Shown piece after piece: positions 21,999 through 31,187 of a stretch of DNA of 64,000 nucleotides. Below the pieces are notes generated by a model. It searched no databases. It was not told where the DNA came from and was given only the letters and a program-made list of their open reading frames with translations. Source of the stretch: Arachidicoccus rhizosphaerae (GTDB taxonomy: Bacteria; Bacteroidota; Bacteroidia; Chitinophagales; Chitinophagaceae). The position numbers and the translations under genes are program-made. Position 1 is the stretch's first letter, and each line of letters opens with the position of its first letter. The stretch spans positions 186,001 through 250,000 of the forward strand of contig NZ_FNQY01000002.1 of the NCBI RefSeq assembly GCF_900107765.1. The letters run 5' to 3'.

Positions 21999-22037
21999 TT
22001 ATATTTAGTAAAATCTGTCTAACACAGTAATAAAAGT

Positions 22038-22090
22038 AAAAAGGAGTTGATCCTCATGTCTTTATGGCAAAAATTAACTCCTTTTTTCTT
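22038..22090 (+). terminator. intrinsic terminator after the small lipoprotein
   Basis: AAAAAGGAGTT (22038-22048) pairs with AACTCCTTTTT (from 22076), then a T-rich run. Confidence 0.85.
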
Positions 22091-22517
22091 TTAGGTATTT
22101 GCCGGAATTATTCGTTCGGGCTATTATCAAGACGAATTTGACTTCTTAAAGACTTATTATATAGTATTTTTAGATTTTTTCTGAAAATATTTAAGATTTT
22201 TCATATGGCAAGCAATCGTTAGAGGCCGTCCTTATTCTTAGGGAGGGCTTTTTTGTATACAGGCTTTTCGAGGGCCCGAAAATTATAGCCTGGCATCCTT
22301 CAAGAAACATTGAGCATTACTTGATTTTAGCAGACCTCTTAAAACAGCTCCGAAACCGAGAGATGAGAGGGTGCCAATCGTTTACTGATAACCATAAAGC
22401 CAGTCATCGCAAAGGGGAAAAGGGAAATATTCGGGGTTATTCAAAGTAGTTCTGGAGGACGCTGAACCTGTTGAACATCAGAAAACTAACACATGATCTG
22501 TTAATTTCAAAAAAAAT
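22091..22517. other. intergenic region with a second terminator-like hairpin
   Basis: No ORF with coding character. A GC-rich imperfect hairpin with a T6 tail at 22223-22256 looks like another terminator ~135 bases after the lipoprotein's terminator. A small RNA could lie between the two, but no promoter or known RNA family was recognised. The stretch 22260-22517 shows nothing I can name. Confidence 0.4.
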
Positions 22518-22548
22518 TTTGTGGGTAATAATTATGTACGTAACTTTG
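22518..22548 (+). promoter_or_regulatory. promoter of the aromatic amino-acid cluster
   Basis: TTTG at 22518-22521, a 19-base spacer, then TAACTTTG at 22541-22548: an exact match to the Bacteroidota consensus TTTG-N19/21-TAnnTTTG. Transcription would start around 22554-22558, 60-65 bases before the leader peptide ATG. Confidence 0.82.
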
Positions 22549-22617
22549 ACCCCGTTAATAAATAAAAAAAAAGTATATAAAAAATACTTAATAACTATTC
22601 GGAGACAATAAAACACC

Positions 22618-22680
22618 ATGGCACAGTCCTTTAATTTTTATTTTGAGTTTTTTAGCTTCTTTTATTTTAAAAAGAAGTAG
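22618..22680 (+). CDS. Phe/Tyr-rich leader peptide of the pheA attenuator
   Basis: A 20-codon ORF starting ATG GCA CAG TCC and ending in three Lys codons and TAG. Eight of the 20 codons are Phe (residues 5, 7, 9, 11, 12, 14, 15, 17) and two are Tyr (8, 16). GGAGAC lies 11 bases before the ATG. The ORF is inside the transcript of the aromatic cluster, between its promoter and an intrinsic terminator that precedes pheA. This is the same arrangement as the E. coli pheL and pheM leader peptides. Ribosome stalling at Phe codons when Phe-tRNA is scarce would leave the sequence after the stop codon free to form an antiterminator. Confidence 0.85.
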   Translation: MAQSFNFYFEFFSFFYFKKK

Positions 22681-22729
22681 GGCTGGTGTTGTATAACGTT
22701 AATCATCTTAAACATAAATAACCCATCCC
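22680..22729 (+). promoter_or_regulatory. predicted antiterminator stem of the phe attenuator
   Basis: GGGCTGGTGTTGT (22680-22692) can pair with ATAACCCATCCC (22718-22729), with one mismatch and one bulge. The left arm begins at the last base of the leader's stop codon, so a ribosome at the stop would cover it. The right arm overlaps the left arm of the terminator (22725-22731), so the two stems exclude each other. Confidence 0.65.
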
Positions 22730-22758
22730 GATCATTTAGGTGTCGGGATTTTTGTTTT
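22725..22758 (+). terminator. attenuator terminator before pheA
   Basis: Seven-base perfect stem ATCCCGA/TCGGGAT (22725-22731, 22743-22749) with an 11-base loop, followed directly by TTTTGTTTT. It lies 23 bases before the pheA start codon, where a terminator makes sense only as an attenuator. Confidence 0.87.
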
Positions 22759-22780
22759 AACAGCATTATTTTAATCAACT

Positions 22781-23635
22781 ATGGAATCTCGTAAAGGTAA
22801 TACTGCTCCCAAAAAAATAGCTATTCAGGGCTATGAGGGATGTTTTCATCAGGAGGCTGCTCAATATTATTATGGTAAACAGGTTGAAGTGATTCCCTGT
22901 GACAGTTTCCGGGATGTCGTCAAAGTTGCTTCTGATAAAAAAATAAGCGACGGCGGCATTATGGCCATTGAAAACACCATTGCCGGTAGTATTTTACCCA
23001 ATTATAATCTTTTGCAGAAAAGCAAACTGAAAATTGTTGGAGAGGTTTATCTTTTGATCAGGCAAAACCTCATGGTCAGCATTGGCGTACCACTGGAAGA
23101 CATTAAAGAAGTCCATTCTCATCCAATGGCCATTCAGCAATGTTTTAAATTTTTGGATGAGTATAACTGGAAATTGGTGGAAACAGAGGACACCGCACTG
23201 AGTGCCCGTAAGCTCAGTAAAAGCAAAAGCCCGCATGTGGCTGTCATTGCCAGTAAGCTGGCTGCCGAAATCTATGATTTAGAGCTTATTGCCCCTAATA
23301 TTCATACACTTAAAAACAACTATACCCGTTTTTTAATCCTCAACAGGGAAGAAGATGTGGTAGATATTCCGGATGCCAATAAAGCTTCCATTTATTTCCA
23401 TACTGATAATTCTAAGGGGAGCCTGGCCAAAGTGCTCAACAAGATCAATGAAGTGGATATAAACCTAAGCAAATTACAGAGTTTCCCTATACCTGGTAGC
23501 GACTGGAAATATAGCTTTCACGCAGATATGGAGTTTGATTCCAGAGATAAATTTGAACTGGCGCTGGATTTAATCCGGCCTTTGACCGAGGAACTGCGCA
23601 TTAACGGGATATACAGAAAAGGCAAAACAATATAA
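22781..23635 (+). CDS. pheA: prephenate dehydratase
   Basis: A 284-residue monofunctional enzyme converting prephenate to phenylpyruvate, the committed step to phenylalanine. The N-terminal catalytic domain shows GYEGCFHQEAA (17-27), AIENTIAGS (62-70) and the catalytic TRF motif at 182-184 (NNYTRFLIL). A C-terminal ACT domain (~200-280, KGSLAKVLNKINEVDINLSK) is the usual site of allosteric inhibition by Phe. There is no chorismate mutase domain; that activity is fused to the DAHP synthase of the same cluster. It is the first structural gene behind the Phe-rich leader and attenuator. Confidence 0.96.
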   Translation: MESRKGNTAPKKIAIQGYEGCFHQEAAQYYYGKQVEVIPCDSFRDVVKVASDKKISDGGIMAIENTIAGSILPNYNLLQKSKLKIVGEVYLLIRQNLMVSIGVPLEDIKEVHSHPMAIQQCFKFLDEYNWKLVETEDTALSARKLSKSKSPHVAVIASKLAAEIYDLELIAPNIHTLKNNYTRFLILNREEDVVDIPDANKASIYFHTDNSKGSLAKVLNKINEVDINLSKLQSFPIPGSDWKYSFHADMEFDSRDKFELALDLIRPLTEELRINGIYRKGKTI

Positions 23636-23660
23636 GACGCATCAAGCGATAATAAATTTT

Positions 23661-24830
23661 ATGAGTCAGGTAGCAGTAGCAGACAGATTACAGGGAATTC
23701 AGGAGTATTATTTCTCTAAGAAGTTAAGAGAAATAGATGAACTCAATAAGGCGGGAAAGCAGATTATTAATCTGGGTATCGGAAGTCCCGATTTACCTCC
23801 GGATCCTACTGTTATTCAGGAACTTTATGAACAGGCGTTAAAGCCCAATGTTCATGGTTACCAGTCTTATAAAGGAGCTGCGGGGCTTAGAGAAGCCATC
23901 AGCCAATGGTACAGCAAATGGTATGGCGTTCAGGTGGATCCCAATAAGGAGGTGTTACCACTGATGGGATCTAAAGAAGGCATTATGCATATCTGCATGA
24001 CTTATTTGAATCCGGGCGACGAGGTCCTGGTACCCAATCCGGGGTATCCGACCTATGCCAGCAATGTCGCCCTTACCGGTGCCAAAGCCGTCACCTATTC
24101 TCTTACAGAAAGTAAAGGGTGGGAGCCTGATTTTGATCAGCTGGAACAGCTTGATTTTTCAAAGATTAAGCTCATGTTCGTCAACTATCCGGGCATGCCC
24201 ACCGGCAAAGCGGCCAGTAAGGAGTTATTTGAAAAGTTGGTAGATTTTGCAAGAAAACATCAGATTCTTTTAATTCATGATAATCCATATAGCTTTATTT
24301 TAAATGATCATCCCATTAGCTTATTAAGCGTACCTGGTGCACTGGATGTGGCTATTGAATTGAATTCACTGAGCAAATCCCATAATATGGCCGGATGGCG
24401 TATAGGTATGCTGCTCGGCTCCGAACAGCGTATCCTGGAGATCTTAAGATTTAAAAGTAACATGGACAGTGGTATGTTTCTGCCTTTACAACTTGCAGGA
24501 GCAAAAGCTTTGACATTGGATAAGGATTTTCATGATCAGGTCAATCAGATATATAAGGAAAGAAGGCTGAAAGTTGAAGAACTTTTAGCATTACTGAACT
24601 GCAGCTATGACAAAAGCCAGGTTGGTCTATTTATGTGGGCTAAGATTCCTGCAAAATATAAAGACGGGTATGAACTGGCAGATGCAGTGCTGTACGGTGC
24701 TGATGTATTTATTACTCCTGGCGGAATATTTGGTTCTGAAGGAGATGGATTTATCCGTATCAGTTTATGTGGAGATGTCAGCCGTTTTGATGAGGCGATT
24801 TCCAGAGTAAAAAAGATGAAACATTCTTAA
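23661..24830 (+). CDS. PLP-dependent aminotransferase class I/II (aromatic or prephenate type)
   Basis: A 389-residue fold-type I aminotransferase. Visible are the N-terminal LGIGSPDLPPD, PNPGYPTYASNVALTGA, the NYPGMPTGKAAS substrate/PLP motif and the Schiff-base Lys239 in SLSKSHNMAGWRIG. A C-terminal RISLC segment carries the carboxylate-binding Arg. Its place between pheA and tyrA, 25 bases after pheA, indicates that it transaminates phenylpyruvate and 4-hydroxyphenylpyruvate (or prephenate) to finish Phe and Tyr synthesis. Substrate assignment is from context. Confidence 0.9.
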   Translation: MSQVAVADRLQGIQEYYFSKKLREIDELNKAGKQIINLGIGSPDLPPDPTVIQELYEQALKPNVHGYQSYKGAAGLREAISQWYSKWYGVQVDPNKEVLPLMGSKEGIMHICMTYLNPGDEVLVPNPGYPTYASNVALTGAKAVTYSLTESKGWEPDFDQLEQLDFSKIKLMFVNYPGMPTGKAASKELFEKLVDFARKHQILLIHDNPYSFILNDHPISLLSVPGALDVAIELNSLSKSHNMAGWRIGMLLGSEQRILEILRFKSNMDSGMFLPLQLAGAKALTLDKDFHDQVNQIYKERRLKVEELLALLNCSYDKSQVGLFMWAKIPAKYKDGYELADAVLYGADVFITPGGIFGSEGDGFIRISLCGDVSRFDEAISRVKKMKHS

Positions 24831-24869
24831 GAAAAAAGGGCCGTCATTTATTAAAAGGCCTAGCAAAAA

Positions 24870-25772
24870 ATGGAACAGAAAAACTTGACAACAACTATAA
24901 TCGGACTTGGCCTTATCGGAGGTACCATGGCCTGGGCTTTAAGAGATCAAGGTCTCTCAGGGCATATTATAGGTGTGGATAATAATGAGGAGCACAGCAG
25001 AAGAGCGCTTGAATTAGGGATTATTGATGAACTGTTAACCCTGGAAGAGGCTGTGAAGGCGGCAGATTTAATTATCCTGGCCATACCGGTTACGGCCGCG
25101 GCCAAACTCTTGCCAGAGTTATTAAACATGGTTGATCATCAGGTGATTACGGATGTGGGATCTACCAAAAGAGGACTGGTCCTGGCGGCCGAAGGTCATC
25201 CCAGACGCGGTCGGTATGTACCTGCCCACCCAATGTGGGGAACGGAATTCAGTGGCCCGGATGCAGCTTCCAGAAATGTGTTGGAAGGCGTTGTTAATAT
25301 TATCTGCGACCCGGCAGACAGTGATAAGGATGCATTAAGCCTGGTGGAGTATTTACTTACCTCACTTGGCATGCGAATCGTTTATATGGACAGTTTAAGT
25401 CATGATACCCATCTGGCATATGTGTCTCATATCTCTCATATCTCTAGTTTTGCTTTGGCAAACACCGTTTTGGAAAAAGAAAAGGAAGAGGACACGATCT
25501 TCAATCTGGCCAGTTCCGGATTTGAAAGCACCGTCCGCCTGGCAAAAAGCAACAGCGCCACCTGGGTACCGGTCTTTAAGCAAAATAAAGAGAATGTACT
25601 GGATGTATTGAATGAATATATTTCTCAGCTTCGCAAGTTTAAAGCTTCTTTGGAAAAAGAAAACTGGTCGTATTTAAATGAACTTATTGAGTCTTCAAAT
25701 AAAATCAGAAAGGTGCTGGACAAAAAGCAAGGAGAAAAACAAGAACAAAAAAAAGTTACTCCGAATAAATAA
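24870..25772 (+). CDS. tyrA: prephenate dehydrogenase
   Basis: A 300-residue enzyme oxidising prephenate to 4-hydroxyphenylpyruvate for tyrosine. The NAD(P)-binding motif GLGLIGG is at residues 12-18. VGSTKRGL, the PAHPMWGTEFSGP active-site motif and THLAYVSHISHISSFALA follow as in the TyrA family. There is no ACT domain and no chorismate mutase domain. The C-terminus is a Lys/Glu/Gln-rich tail. It starts 39 bases after the aminotransferase gene in the same operon. Confidence 0.95.
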   Translation: MEQKNLTTTIIGLGLIGGTMAWALRDQGLSGHIIGVDNNEEHSRRALELGIIDELLTLEEAVKAADLIILAIPVTAAAKLLPELLNMVDHQVITDVGSTKRGLVLAAEGHPRRGRYVPAHPMWGTEFSGPDAASRNVLEGVVNIICDPADSDKDALSLVEYLLTSLGMRIVYMDSLSHDTHLAYVSHISHISSFALANTVLEKEKEEDTIFNLASSGFESTVRLAKSNSATWVPVFKQNKENVLDVLNEYISQLRKFKASLEKENWSYLNELIESSNKIRKVLDKKQGEKQEQKKVTPNK

Positions 25773-25846
25773 GGAGTGACAACAATTAAAAAGCGTAAAC
25801 ACGGTGCTGGTTTCAGTGAAGGAACGGCGCCAATTAAATACATATA

Positions 25847-27541
25847 ATGATTACATTTGAACAACTGGGACTGGATGATCGTTTGGTAAAGGCTACCAGC
25901 GAATTAGGATACATCCACCCAACACCCATTCAGGAACAGGCAATACCTGTACTTTTGAGTGGAACTAAGGACCTGATTGGTTTGGCACAAACCGGAACAG
26001 GTAAGACAGCAGCATTTTCCTTACCGCTGCTAAGTATATTAAAGGAGGATAAAAAATATCCACAGGCACTAATCGTGTGTCCTACCCGTGAACTCTGTTT
26101 GCAGATTGTGAAAGAGATTGTAGGGTTTAAAAAATTCATGAAAGAGATAAATGTAGTTGCTGTTTATGGAGGAGCTTCCATCAGCCTGCAGATCCGGGAC
26201 ATTAAAAGAGGCGTGCAGGTTATTGTAGCCACTCCCGGAAGACTCATTGACCTGATTGAAAGAAAGGCCGTGAATTTAGAAAAGATCCAATATGTGGTAC
26301 TGGATGAAGCGGATGAAATGCTGAATATGGGATTCCAGGATGACATTGAGTTTATCTTAAACAACACGCCAATCAGAGAAAGTACCTGGTTATTTAGTGC
26401 AACAATGCCACCGGCTATCCGTAAGGTGTCCAAAAAGTATATGGATAATCCGGTTGAGATTACAGTAGGTAAAGCCAATACGGTAAACACCAATATTGAT
26501 CATCAGTATTATGTAACTTCTGCGCAGCACAGATATGAGACCTTAAAAAGGTTGATTGATTTTAATCCGGGTATTTACGGGATTATTTTTACCCGTACCA
26601 AAGCGGATGCGCAAAATATTGCAGAGAAACTGACCCGTGAAGGTTATGATATTGACGCCTTGCATGGTGACCTTACACAGCCTCAGCGTGACCGTGTCAT
26701 GAAGCAGTTCAGAGACAGAAGCCTGCAATTATTAATTGCTACGGACGTAGCCGCACGAGGAATAGACGTTAAAGAAATTACCCATGTCATTAACTATGAA
26801 CTGCCAGATGACGTGGAAGTATATACGCATAGAAGTGGTCGTACGGGCAGGGCCGGTTCAACCGGTATCTGTATCAGTATTATTCACTCCAGGGAATCTT
26901 ACCGCCTCAAACAGATTCAAAAGATAGTTCAGGCTCCGTTTAATAAAATGGAAATTCCTTCCGGTAAGGATGTTTGTCGTAAACAGTTCTTCTATTTTAT
27001 GGATAAACTGCTAAAAGCCGATGTATCTCACGGAGATTATGAATCCTATGTTCCGATGCTGGAAGAAAGATTTGCGGATATATCCAAGGAAGAAGTGCTG
27101 AAAAGAGTGGCTGCTCTTGAATTTGACAGGTTCCTGCAATATTATGAAAATGCGGGTGACTTAAATGTCAGACAAGGAGAAAACAGAGCAGACCGCAGAG
27201 ACCGTCAGATGGGTAGAGAGCGTTCGGACCATTCAGATCGCGGCGAACGGGGAGCCAGAAACGGCAAAAGAGATAACCGCGATTTTCAGGGAGAAACAGC
27301 CAGATTGTTTATTAATATAGGTACCAAGGACGGTTTTTATAAAGCCAGCTTCCTGCAGTTTATTCTGGATATGAGTGATCTGAGAAAAGAAGTCCTGGGC
27401 CGCATTGACATGAAAGAAATGAACTCCTGGGTGGAAATTGATAAGAAAGCCGCTAATCAGATGATTCGCTCTTTGGATGGTAAAAAATTCAAAGGTCGTA
27501 AAATCAGGATGAATGATGCGGATTCAGGCGGACGCAGATAA
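25847..27541 (+). CDS. DEAD-box ATP-dependent RNA helicase with DbpA-type RNA-binding domain
   Basis: A 564-residue helicase. Motifs in order: Q motif (HPTPIQEQAIP), motif I AQTGTGKT (47-54), Ia PTRELCLQ, DEAD at 153-156, SAT, and the C-terminal RecA-like domain with HRSGRTGRAG. A linker rich in Arg, Asp and Gly (~443-475) leads to a C-terminal DbpA/CsdA-type RNA-binding domain (INIGTKDGFYKASFLQFI). Such enzymes act in ribosome assembly, mRNA decay or cold adaptation. It is unusual that the gene lies inside the aromatic amino-acid cluster, 74 bases after tyrA and 69 bases before the DAHP synthase gene, in the same direction. It may be cotranscribed; no separate promoter was seen. Confidence 0.94.
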   Translation: MITFEQLGLDDRLVKATSELGYIHPTPIQEQAIPVLLSGTKDLIGLAQTGTGKTAAFSLPLLSILKEDKKYPQALIVCPTRELCLQIVKEIVGFKKFMKEINVVAVYGGASISLQIRDIKRGVQVIVATPGRLIDLIERKAVNLEKIQYVVLDEADEMLNMGFQDDIEFILNNTPIRESTWLFSATMPPAIRKVSKKYMDNPVEITVGKANTVNTNIDHQYYVTSAQHRYETLKRLIDFNPGIYGIIFTRTKADAQNIAEKLTREGYDIDALHGDLTQPQRDRVMKQFRDRSLQLLIATDVAARGIDVKEITHVINYELPDDVEVYTHRSGRTGRAGSTGICISIIHSRESYRLKQIQKIVQAPFNKMEIPSGKDVCRKQFFYFMDKLLKADVSHGDYESYVPMLEERFADISKEEVLKRVAALEFDRFLQYYENAGDLNVRQGENRADRRDRQMGRERSDHSDRGERGARNGKRDNRDFQGETARLFINIGTKDGFYKASFLQFILDMSDLRKEVLGRIDMKEMNSWVEIDKKAANQMIRSLDGKKFKGRKIRMNDADSGGRR

Positions 27542-27610
27542 CGCTATGCGTAGAGAAAAATTAGACACAAACTTTGAAAAATAACATTAATCATCATTAA
27601 TCATTGTAAA

Positions 27611-28699
27611 ATGGAAACAGCAAACATTGCAGCACAAAAAGAGAAAGTTATGCAGGTGCTGAAAAAACGCCCACTGATTATTTCTGGGCCATGCAGTGCA
27701 GAGACTGAAGAACAGGTGATGGCTACGGCCCTTGGCCTGAAAGCTACCGGTAAAGTAGATGTATTAAGAGCTGGTATCTGGAAACCAAGAACACGTCCCG
27801 GAAGTTTTGAAGGGATCGGTACAAAGGGCTTGCCTTGGCTGCAGGCTGCTAAAGATGCCACTGGTTTATTAACCGCTGTAGAAGTCGCCACTCCAAAACA
27901 AGCAGAAGACGCCTTACATTTTGGTGTTGATATTTTATGGCTGGGAGCCAGAACTACGGTTAACCCATTCAGCGTTCAGGACTTGGCCGATGCGCTTCGT
28001 GGTGTTGATGTACCTGTATTGATTAAAAACCCCATTAATCCGGATCTGGAACTTTGGACAGGTGCCGTTGAAAGAATTGACCGCGCCGGTATTAAAGATA
28101 TAGGACTGATTCACCGCGGGTTCGCTTCATATGGTAATAGTGAATATCGCAATGCGCCTATGTGGCACCTTGCTATTGAAATGAAACGTCGTTATCCTGA
28201 ACTGTTGTTCATCAATGACCCGTCTCATATCTGTGGTCGTCGTGATAATCTGGTGGCTGTGGCTCAGGAAGCCATCGATCTGGATTATGATGGTTTGATT
28301 ATTGAATCTCATATTGATCCGGATAAAGCCTGGAGTGATGCCAAGCAGCAGGTGACACCGGAAAGACTGGGTGCCATGCTGGATGAGATTGTATGGCGCA
28401 AGGAAACGGTACATGCTCCTGATCATCAGACGCTGGAAAAATATCGTCAGCAGATCAATCATTTAGATGATGAAATGATCCAGTTAATCGGTCAAAGAAT
28501 GAAAATTGCCGATCAGATCGGAAAATATAAAAAAGAAAACGGTATTACCATTCTTCAGACTAACCGCTGGAATGAAATTCTGGAAAAGGCTGTACTGAAG
28601 GGTGAGAAAAAAGGTCTTAGCAAAGAGTTTATTACCAAATATTTTGATGCCATCCATATGGAAAGCATTGCGCATCAAAATAAAGTGATGAACGATTAG
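27611..28699 (+). CDS. bifunctional DAHP synthase / chorismate mutase
   Basis: A 362-residue fusion. Residues ~1-260 are a type I-beta (KDO8P-like) DAHP synthase, with GPCSAETEEQ, RAGIWKPRTRPGSFEG, KNPINPD and INDPSHICGRR. It condenses PEP and erythrose 4-phosphate, the entry step to the shikimate pathway. Residues ~275-360 are an AroQ-type chorismate mutase (LEKYRQQINHLDDEMIQLI, then RMKIADQIGKYKKENG), which makes prephenate. The mutase domain in such fusions often serves as a feedback sensor for chorismate or prephenate. It sits in the cluster whose pheA and tyrA lack a mutase of their own. Confidence 0.95.
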   Translation: METANIAAQKEKVMQVLKKRPLIISGPCSAETEEQVMATALGLKATGKVDVLRAGIWKPRTRPGSFEGIGTKGLPWLQAAKDATGLLTAVEVATPKQAEDALHFGVDILWLGARTTVNPFSVQDLADALRGVDVPVLIKNPINPDLELWTGAVERIDRAGIKDIGLIHRGFASYGNSEYRNAPMWHLAIEMKRRYPELLFINDPSHICGRRDNLVAVAQEAIDLDYDGLIIESHIDPDKAWSDAKQQVTPERLGAMLDEIVWRKETVHAPDHQTLEKYRQQINHLDDEMIQLIGQRMKIADQIGKYKKENGITILQTNRWNEILEKAVLKGEKKGLSKEFITKYFDAIHMESIAHQNKVMND

Positions 28700-28729
28700 T
28701 CAGGATACACTCCAACTGTAATTGCTGTA

Positions 28730-29854
28730 ATGTTTTCAAAGAAAGCCTCGCTGCGGCCTGTCATAAAGGCCGCAGCAGCGCTATATGCTGAACGTTATAA
28801 AAAGAAAAAGCCCTTGAAAAAGACAATTAAATACAGTTCCGGAACCACTGTCTTTCATTTTGACAGCAGTCTGGATCAGCTGGATAAGTTAGCAGATAAA
28901 AATGCTGCTTTTATTATTACAGATGATAATCTCTATCATTATTATCAGAAAAAATTAAAAGGCTGGAAGGTCTTACTTATTAAGGCAGGAGAAGCCTATA
29001 AAAATATGGATGCGGTCCAACAGCTCATCGGCCAGCTGATTGAGGCCGGAGCAGACCGTAAATCCACCATTATAGGAATGGGAGGCGGTGTGGTTACAGA
29101 CATCGCGGGATTTGTCGCTTCTATATATTTAAGGGGTGTTGATTTTGGGTTTATCCCCACTTCTGTCCTGGCCATGGTGGACGCCTCCATTGGAGGTAAA
29201 AATGGCGTGGATGTCGGTATATTTAAGAACATGGCCGGCATAATACGGCAGCCCAGATTTTTGCTATATGATTATAGTTTGCTGAAAACACTGCCTAATG
29301 AAGAGTGGGTAGGAGGTTTTGCAGAAATTATTAAACATGCCTGTATTAAAGATGCTGCCATGTTTAAATTGCTGGAACAGCATAGCCTGAAAGATTTTAA
29401 AAAGACCCCTGACTTGTTAAGCCAGCTGATTGCCCGCAATGTGCTGATTAAAGCTAAAGTTGTTCAGCTGGACGAAACCGAACAAGGGGACAGAAAATTG
29501 CTCAATTACGGCCATACCCTAGGTCATGCCATTGAAAATACCTACCAGTTACCACATGGCAGTGCCGTTTCTATTGGTATGGTGGTGGCCGCCTATTTGT
29601 CAAAAGCTGTATTAGATTTTAATCAATCCGAAAGAATTATAAAATTGGTACAGGCCTATGGCCTGCCTGCTTATTATGATTATGATCCTCAGGACGCGCT
29701 GGCAAAAATGCGTTCCGATAAAAAAAGGGTTAAAGATCAAATCCATTTTGTTTTACTGGAAAAGATTGGCAAAGCTGTCCATCAACCGCTCACCATGGAG
29801 CAAATTGCACCGGTCGTGGAATTAATGGGAGCTAAGGGTCAATCAAATAAATAA
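28730..29854 (+). CDS. aroB: 3-dehydroquinate synthase
   Basis: A 374-residue NAD-dependent enzyme that cyclises DAHP to 3-dehydroquinate. GMGGGVVTDIAGFVAS, the PTSVLAMVDASIGGKNGVD signature, the zinc-ligand Glu in GGFAEIIKHACI and the two His motifs LNYGHTLGHAIE and LPHGSAVSIGM are present. It begins 30 bases after the DAHP synthase gene. There is a short N-terminal extension relative to many homologues. Confidence 0.96.
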   Translation: MFSKKASLRPVIKAAAALYAERYKKKKPLKKTIKYSSGTTVFHFDSSLDQLDKLADKNAAFIITDDNLYHYYQKKLKGWKVLLIKAGEAYKNMDAVQQLIGQLIEAGADRKSTIIGMGGGVVTDIAGFVASIYLRGVDFGFIPTSVLAMVDASIGGKNGVDVGIFKNMAGIIRQPRFLLYDYSLLKTLPNEEWVGGFAEIIKHACIKDAAMFKLLEQHSLKDFKKTPDLLSQLIARNVLIKAKVVQLDETEQGDRKLLNYGHTLGHAIENTYQLPHGSAVSIGMVVAAYLSKAVLDFNQSERIIKLVQAYGLPAYYDYDPQDALAKMRSDKKRVKDQIHFVLLEKIGKAVHQPLTMEQIAPVVELMGAKGQSNK

Positions 29855-29867
29855 TTATTATTCCGCA

Positions 29868-31187
29868 ATGACTTTTGAAAATATAGAAATCTCATATAGC
29901 GTCAGGGTTCATCCGGGCAATGTGTCCGGACAGATCACTGCTCCGGCCTCTAAAAGTTCCATGCAGCGAGCTGCTGCGGCGGCACTGGTAAGTGGCGGTA
30001 AATCCATTATAGAAAATCCCGGCATCTCCAATGATGATCAGGCGTCGGTAGGTGTTATCGAAGCACTGGGTGCGACGGTTCGTGCCACCGCTACAGGTGC
30101 TTTAGAGGTGGATGCGACGGTACTGACCACAGACGCAGATCAAGAAATTAAGGTTCATTTTGGCGAAAGCGGACTTGGTATCAGAATGTTTACTTCCATT
30201 GCTGCACTACGCAGCGGCCTGACCCGTATTGAAGGGCAGGGGAGTCTGACCAGCCGGCCTATGGACTTTTTTGATCAAACCTTACCACAGTTGGGCGTAT
30301 CCATAAAAAGTAACCAGGGGAAATTACCGCTGGAAATAAAGGGTCCCCTGGTGCCCCAAAATATCACGATTGACGGTTCCTTAAGTTCTCAGTTTTTAAC
30401 CGGACTCTTATTAGCCTATAGTGCTGCTGATGCAAGGGACGTGACCATAACGGTCAGTAATTTAAAAAGCAGGCCTTATGTTGATCTGACTTTGAAGGTT
30501 ATGGCAGATTTTGGCCTTAAGCTTCCTCAAAATAATAATTACGAAAGTTTTTATTTTGGTAAACAAGAGAAGCCAACCAACCAGGCCACCACCACCTACC
30601 AGGTCGAAGGTGACTGGAGCGGAGGCGCTTTTTTACTCGTGGCCGGGGCTATTAAAGGCCCGATAACGGTCAAAGGGCTGGACCCCGTATCCACGCAGGC
30701 AGATAAAGCTATTTTGCAGGCATTGCAGCAGAGCGGTTGTCAGCTGTCTGTGGAACAAAATCAGATTCAGATTGGCCCTGCCACCGGTCCTTTAAAAGCA
30801 TTTCAGTTTGATGCCACGGATTGTCCGGATCTGTTCCCGCCGCTGGTAGCGCTGGCTGCTTATTGTGAAGGGAAATCAGTCATCCAGGGGGTTACCAGGT
30901 TAGCCCATAAGGAAAGCAACAGAGCGCTTACTTTGCAGGAGGAATTTGCAAAACTGGGCGTGCAGGTATTATTGCAGGATGATTTAATGATTATTGAAGG
31001 CGGAGGTATTATTAATGGTAATACCGCTACCCATTCCAGACATGATCACCGCATTGCCATGGCAGCTGCTGTAGCGGCTTTGGGGGCAGATGGTCCGGTT
31101 GAGATTCAGGAGGCCGCGGCTGTTAAAAAATCTTATCCTAATTTTTACCAGCATCTAGCAAACTTAGGTGTAACTTTAAGTTATTAA
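29868..31187 (+). CDS. aroA: 3-phosphoshikimate 1-carboxyvinyltransferase (EPSP synthase)
   Basis: A 439-residue enzyme adding the enolpyruvyl group of PEP to shikimate 3-phosphate. The Lys-Ser motif PASKSSMQRAAAAALVSGG near the N-terminus, FGESGLGIRMFTSIAA, GSLTSRPM, GSLSSQFLTGLL, the catalytic Asp in ATDCPDLFPPL and HRIAMAAAVAAL are all recognisable. The start lies 13 bases after aroB. In the usual active-site loop the glycine-rich element reads GESGLGIR, where many class I enzymes have GNAGTAMR. Confidence 0.95.
   Translation: MTFENIEISYSVRVHPGNVSGQITAPASKSSMQRAAAAALVSGGKSIIENPGISNDDQASVGVIEALGATVRATATGALEVDATVLTTDADQEIKVHFGESGLGIRMFTSIAALRSGLTRIEGQGSLTSRPMDFFDQTLPQLGVSIKSNQGKLPLEIKGPLVPQNITIDGSLSSQFLTGLLLAYSAADARDVTITVSNLKSRPYVDLTLKVMADFGLKLPQNNNYESFYFGKQEKPTNQATTTYQVEGDWSGGAFLLVAGAIKGPITVKGLDPVSTQADKAILQALQQSGCQLSVEQNQIQIGPATGPLKAFQFDATDCPDLFPPLVALAAYCEGKSVIQGVTRLAHKESNRALTLQEEFAKLGVQVLLQDDLMIIEGGGIINGNTATHSRHDHRIAMAAAVAALGADGPVEIQEAAAVKKSYPNFYQHLANLGVTLSY

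Follow-up and report, generated by a model that had tools for sequence, protein, structure and literature searches.

A conserved Phe/Tyr-rich leader ORF upstream of pheA in Arachidicoccus rhizosphaerae and its relatives: a probable ribosome-mediated transcription attenuator

Introduction

In E. coli, the pheL leader combines a Phe-rich open reading frame (ORF), mutually exclusive RNA stems and a terminator, and an attenuator at aroR-aroF of C. glutamicum was reportedly described by Neshat et al. in 2014. The available text of PMC11802643 describes control of E. coli pheA through pheL, and a C. glutamicum aroR leader for which limitation of Phe is the signal while Tyr availability has no effect. 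According to the accessible part of PMC7298713, the first nucleotides of the S. meliloti trpL transcript are the leader ATG itself. Bacteroidota mostly lack Shine-Dalgarno initiation (PMC7366714, available sections), and for Flavobacterium psychrophilum the accessible sections of PMC9723704 report ‘strong clues’ that amino acid operons are preceded by leader-peptide attenuators; among the structured 5' regions treated in these sections, no pheA leader, arms or leaderless state is named. In the literature as far as its text was accessible, our search found no description of a Phe/Tyr attenuator in Bacteroidota or of leaderless attenuators in this phylum, and an earlier prediction may be contained in Vitreschak 2004 or Lopatovskaya 2010.

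Here we analyse a leader in front of pheA in a 64,000-nt stretch of the Arachidicoccus rhizosphaerae genome (hereafter the window; all coordinates are positions within it, and all features from the promoter to aroA lie on the + strand). The locus resembles E. coli pheL-pheA (Rfam RF01859, Phe_leader) in having a leader peptide gene before pheA and in its predicted control by charged Phe-tRNA. It differs in the constant presence of Tyr codons, in a gene run that includes tyrA and shikimate genes, and in a promoter of the Bacteroidota type. The RF01859 model, which matches 2/14 control genomes (E. coli among them), found nothing in the genome of the window at E 0.001. With C. glutamicum aroR-aroF, as far as the available text describes it, the family shares the combination of Phe and Tyr codons (Phe-Tyr-Phe) and the DAHP synthase target, a DAHP synthase gene being directly 3' of the leader in L164, L166, L168, L171 and L185; the C. 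glutamicum codon run is much shorter in that text, and the organism belongs to another phylum. The trpL/rnTrpL system of S. meliloti provides a precedent for leaderless leader peptides, since its transcript begins at the leader ORF ATG, but it concerns Trp and a single operon in an alphaproteobacterium. The mechanism proposed below is classical attenuation, a known kind, in a Bacteroidota family for which we found no description. Leaderless loading and dual codons would make this attenuator a variant, should experiments bear them out.

Results

A Phe/Tyr-rich leader ORF precedes pheA and a run of aromatic amino acid genes

The leader ORF (22618-22680) runs from an ATG at 22618 to a TAG ending at 22680; its 20 codons encode MAQSFNFYFEFFSFFYFKKK, with 8 Phe and 2 Tyr, exactly as given in the initial annotation. 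The run of control codons, from the first to the last Phe codon, spans 22630-22668, as read from the sequence and used in the ribosome-position model. This density of Phe/Tyr codons (10 within the best 16-codon window) exceeds chance: at least 10 such codons occurred in 1/10,000 dinucleotide shuffles of 22381-22783 and in 0/10,000 of 22549-22780. The ORF, whose translation is predicted, is thus rich in codons for the products of its own pathway, as is characteristic of ribosome-mediated attenuators.

The pheA gene (22781-23635; prephenate dehydratase, Pfam PF00800, E 1.3e-55) has its ATG at 22781, 22 nt past the terminator tail described below. It is followed by genes for a class I/II aminotransferase (23661-24830; PF00155), the prephenate dehydrogenase TyrA (24870-25772; PF02153, PF20463), a DEAD-box RNA helicase with a DbpA domain (25847-27541; PF00270, PF03880), a DAHP synthase fused to chorismate mutase (27611-28699; PF00793, PF01817), the 3-dehydroquinate synthase AroB (28730-29854; PF01761, PF24621) and the EPSP synthase AroA (29868-31187; PF00275). 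All seven genes share the + orientation and lie 13-74 nt apart, and a single operon from pheA to aroA is plausible. From these short gaps we infer control of the whole cluster (22781-31187) by the leader, a cluster that has the DEAD-box helicase gene inside it. By eye, sequence like the end of a DEAD-box helicase gene also lies directly 5' of the Phe leader in L010, L012, L014, L017 and L083. Elsewhere in the window, a cobalamin riboswitch (Rfam RF00174, 97 bits) was detected at 1039-1237.

Upstream of the leader, a -33 element, TTTG (22518-22521), is separated by a 19-nt spacer from the -7 box TAACTTTG (22541-22548), and 6/6 loci of the window's genus have an exact TAnnTTTG box. This TTTG-N19-TAnnTTTG arrangement fits the Bacteroidota consensus quoted in the accessible part of PMC7366714. 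The ‘exact’ promoter initially annotated therefore stands as a pattern, but not as a significant match in its own right, since the whole window holds five occurrences against 2.4 expected and 12/100 shuffles held five or more. According to the available text of PMC9723704, the TAnnTTTG box occupies -12 to -5; the length of the 5' untranslated region (UTR) was accordingly predicted as the gap between box and start codon minus 4. With a start 5 nt after the box, the leader of the window would have a 5' UTR of ~65 nt (22553-22617).

The predicted terminator and antiterminator of the window are mutually exclusive

Four RNA arms were delineated in the window. Arm 1 (CACCATGGCACAGTCC, 22614-22629) can pair with arm 2 (AGGGCTGGTGTTGT, 22679-22692), which begins inside the leader stop codon; the core of arm 2, AGGGCTGG (22679-22686), likewise begins within the TAG, confirming the antiterminator arm that had been noted at the end of the leader. 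Its partner, CCCATCCC (22722-22729), lies in arm 3 (22718-22732) and overlaps the 5' arm of a predicted intrinsic terminator (22725-22758), which is built of ATCCCGAT (22725-22732), GTCGGGAT (22742-22749) and a T-rich tail to 22758. Through this overlap of CCCATCCC and ATCCCGAT, the earlier claim of a mutually exclusive terminator with a T-rich tail before pheA holds as well. As expected of ribosome-mediated attenuators, the modelled terminator lies between the leader and the first structural gene, and the modelled antiterminator excludes it and would be masked once a ribosome reaches the stop codon.

The two structures are of moderate and nearly equal stability. The terminator hairpin has a folding energy of -11.5 kcal/mol (z -2.8; 1/200 shuffles as good), versus -11.7 kcal/mol for the antiterminator, which contains a C-U mismatch and reaches a z of only -1.7 (14/200 shuffles as good); the fold of the whole leader has a z of -1.1. 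An automatic terminator scan called no terminator, probably because the loop has 9 nt and the scan a limit of 8. By itself the window is only moderately convincing, and it is the comparison with relatives that settles the case.

Leader and competing stems are conserved upstream of pheA in relatives

Fifty-nine genomes were searched for PheA; 35 had a relative, and the best 30 of these 35 loci were read. A Phe/Tyr-rich ORF was located 5' of pheA in 29/30, the one exception being L029, where pheA has no visible leader. A second set comprised named records, the best 80 of at least 582 confirmed candidates, many of them titled Chitinophagaceae or Filimonas, Niastella and Flavihumibacter, and others Bacteroidetes, Sphingobacteriales or uncultured. 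In these best 80, 77 loci had a Phe/Tyr leader 5' of pheA (with a GTG start in L083), and none was visible in L086, L093 and L096. Together this amounts to 106/110 loci, a total whose members are not independent of one another because the two sets overlap (L037 equals L007 in both sequence and position) and many of the loci are closely related. In dinucleotide shuffles of the 110 loci, eight of which were in the wrong orientation, seven or more Phe plus Tyr codons occurred in 35/2200 and nine or more in 0/2200. A hairpin followed by a T-run was found 14-45 nt past the leader stop at 98/98 loci where it was sought (the window's among them, L096 dropped), usually built on TCCCGGC/GCCGGGA, by a hairpin finder that had no null of its own. 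At the level of prediction, this recurrence of the leader in relatives settles the attenuator case for the window. Two Phe/Tyr leaders, apparently in tandem, precede a single pheA in L027 and L030.

Tyr codons were present in 103/103 leaders counted, with means of 5.8 Phe and 3.7 Tyr per leader. The sensor region as read from these codons consists of Phe plus Tyr, not Phe alone. Of the Phe-tRNA sensor originally proposed, the Phe codons are thus kept in relatives, while the restriction to Phe codons falls. The presence of Tyr codons in all leaders fits a gene run that serves both amino acids. Since C. glutamicum aroR has Tyr codons but is reported to lack a Tyr response, we put forward Tyr sensing by the leader only as a hypothesis.

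Arm 2 (GCCGGGAATGCTTTTGTTGA, at the leader end) is in most loci complementary both to arm 1 (around AAAGCATAC, close to the start of the leader) and to arm 3 (TCAACATAAAGAGTCCCGGC), and arm 3 is in turn complementary to arm 4 (GCCGGGACT). Three stems (1:2, 2:3 and 3:4) compete through these common arms. We aligned 88 sequences; of the 98, those from the window's genus, L024, L030 and two duplicates were left out. For the 2:3 stem, 78.3% of cells were paired, against 25-48% in slid controls, and 10/14 pairs showed changes on both sides; cells with such both-sided change numbered 56, versus 28 in shuffles. The number of both-sided-change pairs was reached by 7/500 shuffles and that of further pair types by 62/500. 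Pairing amounted to 96% of cells in the 3:4 helix, 71% in the main 1:2 helix and only 55% in the inner 1:2 helix. For the whole 1:2/3:4 model, paired cells, both-sided-change cells and the covariation score were above all shuffles; its both-sided-change pairs were reached by 218/500 shuffles and its further pair types by 160/500, and slid versions equalled or exceeded its number of both-sided pairs.

Because alignment shuffles ignore the relatedness of the sequences, we also made an alignment-free test that compared how well an arm pairs with the partner from its own locus and with one from another locus. This covered 90 of 95 loci, the window's genus included (in the other 5/95 the separate arms were too short). 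Own partners were favoured for 1:2 (-14.9 vs -12.4 kcal/mol swapped, z -8.7) and for 2:3 (-20.1 vs -16.8 kcal/mol, z -12.9), in both cases with 0/2000 permutations reaching this difference. The control pairings 1:3, control codons with 2, control codons with 3, and upstream sequence with 2 gave no own-partner excess in the 90 loci. The expectations that relatives would retain enriched Phe codons and both alternative stems were thus borne out, the stems with compensatory change. The ORF and its conservation, the three competing stems, their maintained pairing and the geometry are established here by computation.

A ribosome-position model links the control codons to terminator formation

In the model, the leading edge of the ribosome was set 13 nt past the first base of the A-site codon. 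In the available text of PMC4833913, the leading edge extends at most 12 nt beyond the stop codon. Across 95 loci, the core of arm 3 paired upstream with a mean probability of 0.84 with the ribosome on the Phe/Tyr codons versus 0.01 with the ribosome at the stop codon, and the difference was greater than 0.3 in 94/95. The window itself gave 0.42 on the Phe/Tyr codons and 0.02 at the stop codon; we suspect that the lower value reflects an antiterminator that overlaps the terminator arm only in part. When the ribosome was placed on a middle control codon, the probability was 0.89, compared to 0.44 when the sequence before arm 3 was shuffled, and the real sequence was above all 15 shuffles in 71/95 loci. 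Ribosome-free RNA also favoured the 2:3 antiterminator (0.85 in the model), and the 1:2 pairing, although maintained in the family, did not beat 2:3 at equilibrium. Basal termination via 1:2 is therefore unsupported at equilibrium and would need kinetics.

We interpret the element as a ribosome-mediated transcription attenuator that senses the charging of Phe-tRNA, probably together with that of Tyr-tRNA, and assign this reading a probability of about 0.92. Termination, tRNA sensing, the start site and the extent of the operon are what we infer within it. Transcription would start shortly 3' of the TAnnTTTG box, and a ribosome would trail the polymerase through the leader ORF. When Phe- or Tyr-tRNA is short, the ribosome would stall within the Phe/Tyr run and leave arm 2 free to pair with arm 3, which would block the terminator and allow pheA and the genes behind it to be transcribed. 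When the tRNAs are charged, the ribosome would reach the stop codon and cover arm 2, so that the terminator of arms 3 and 4 would form. Arm 2 may also be sequestered by arm 1, where the ORF begins.

Leaders of this kind extend across the phylum and to other amino acids

An RNA model, R1, built on the 88 aligned leader sequences, matched 75/395 genomes across the phylum and 198/294 in the window's family. Besides the window's own, 83 phylum matches were read. Sixty of these adjoin a pheA- or DAHP-synthase-like gene, and 59/60 have a Phe/Tyr ORF, 10 in the window's family and 49 outside it, many of the latter from one genus; the remaining one, L190, shows no such ORF. The other 23/83 have no aromatic gene in the stretch read and look false, so the raw genome tallies are inflated. 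R1 is unspecific at E 1e-3 and misses genomes with visible leaders (G001, G005, G034). It may serve as an annotation aid for aromatic operons, which had no Rfam match here.

Comparable leaders were found before other amino acid genes, in counts made without a shuffle test. His-rich leaders preceded hisG in 12/12 hisG-bearing genomes of 19 searched, their terminators being judged by eye. Ile/Val-rich leaders preceded ilvD at 7/15 full-length loci (six genomes of the window's genus and one other; one leader has a TTG start), and Trp-rich leaders were present at 9/23 chorismate-binding loci, a set that probably includes trpE paralogues. The window's genome has four leader kinds: Phe/Tyr (L001), His (L117), Ile/Val (L126) and Trp (L229). 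The His-rich leader 5' of hisG, MFKKAHTHHHHFLFNG, has a terminator and is of the same kind in L111-L122. The Ile/Val-rich leader 5' of ilvD, MKTSVKNIIPVVVIIIVVVIISSFRGGGFVL, is likewise accompanied by a terminator. The Trp leader MILNRVNIHWWWQCSKTSGSFEV (L229:683-754) lies 5' of a trpE-like gene; its start codon is 4 nt past a TAAATTTG box, giving a predicted 5' UTR of zero, and a terminator lies 3' of it. Two ilvD-like fragments in G000:C49:2790-3102 (L138, L139) each contain an in-frame stop and are perhaps a decayed paralogue.

Weighing other readings of the locus

A small functional, aromatic-rich peptide with its own terminator, linked to pheA merely by position, would account for the peptide ends that many loci conserve (KAYR close to the start, RPGMLLL towards the end). 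These ends, however, are encoded by the codons making up arms 1 and 2, and where the RNA arms differ the peptide changes along with them and pairing is kept (L016 and L020 have VVFAKA instead of GMLLL). The Phe/Tyr run in between varies in length and order, and R1, a model of RNA without gene information, still found matches adjoining pheA- or DAHP-synthase-like genes in 60/83 cases, which makes a purely positional link improbable. Alternative terminator and antiterminator stems are also common to leaders read by an RNA-binding factor, a riboswitch ligand or an uncharged tRNA (T-box), in which case the ORF would be incidental. Yet what is most clearly constrained beside the stems is the identity of codons in an open frame, a feature for which ligand sensors have no use, and the His, Trp and Ile/Val operons of the same genome have their own leaders with the matching amino acid. 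No Rfam family reached the gathering score at the window's leader or at ten leader loci; a T-box was absent from the Rfam matches up to E 10 in window positions 22000-23200 and from those at gathering score in the window. We consider such a sensor very improbable.

That a T-rich intergenic stretch merely happens to read as Phe codons draws on the AT-richness of the region and the modest structure scores of the window itself. The observed Phe/Tyr density, reached by 0 to 1 of 10,000 shuffles, and the recurrence of the feature in 106/110 loci of the two overlapping sets leave this reading with next to no probability. On the evidence given against each, the small-protein, T-box and chance readings were rejected. 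The attenuator reading gives the family a wider meaning: conserved, probable ribosome-mediated attenuators in a phylum mostly without Shine-Dalgarno initiation would be workable only if transcription and translation are coupled. Coupling in Bacteroidota and early ribosome loading thereby become testable at one element of ~150 nt.

Leader start codons lie close to the predicted promoter in the window's family

The hexamer GGAGAC before the leader ATG had been put forward as a Shine-Dalgarno site, but as such it is absent in relatives: L003 has AGAGAC, L002 only AGAGAG, and L004-L006 have nothing resembling it directly 5' of the leader start. We rejected this role, the motif being lost in relatives, most of which beyond the genus have no room for it.

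The distance between box and start codon was surveyed for 96 Phe leaders from other genera than the window's; duplicate or truncated loci (L037, L084 and L094) were dropped, and L030 and L096 were also excluded. A box with at least 5/6 fixed bases lay within 20 nt of the start in 94/96, and the gap was 4-10 nt in 87/96, corresponding to a predicted 5' UTR of 0-6 nt. Exact boxes at gaps of 4-10 numbered 71, including 29 at gap 7; at the remaining distances, surveyed to 72 nt, they were rare. This contrasts with Bacteroides thetaiotaomicron, in which 3.7% of 5' UTRs are <10 nt (PMC7366714, available sections), and with F. psychrophilum, in which 5.5% of mRNAs are leaderless (PMC9723704, accessible part). 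For the other amino acids, 8 of the 9 Trp leaders were checked, and all (8/8, three with a 5-of-6 box) had gaps of 4-6, i.e. a predicted UTR of 0-2 nt. Gaps were 4-10 in 9/12 His leaders and ranged from 0 to 35 in five Ile/Val leaders checked; an internal ATG was used in the box check for L230 and L235.

In other families, 29/49 confirmed loci were checked using the best-scoring box; gaps were 2-10 in 6 and 15-45 in 23, and a leaderless state is therefore not typical of the phylum. With start sites as predicted here, a leaderless or near-leaderless start is typical of the window's family. We give even odds to a joint reading of these patterns, in which amino acid attenuators of Chitinophagaceae sit on leaderless messages and one ancestral Phe/Tyr attenuator had its 5' UTR gained or lost. 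In its leaderless part, transcripts of the Phe/Tyr, Trp and most His leaders would begin at, or a few nt before, the start codon. Ribosomes would then load on the nascent 5' end without a Shine-Dalgarno site, and their coupling to the polymerase would begin with the first codon. The ancestral attenuator would predate the split of several Bacteroidota families and have been kept before pheA or the DAHP synthase gene.

The window's genus is the exception within its family, with box gaps of 35-70 nt in 6/6 loci and predicted 5' UTRs of 31-66 nt. The 5' UTR is A-rich in this genus, and in the window a stretch at 22571-22589, AAGTATATAAAAAATACTT, can fold into a small hairpin. In L004-L006, TATATAA recurs close to the start codon.
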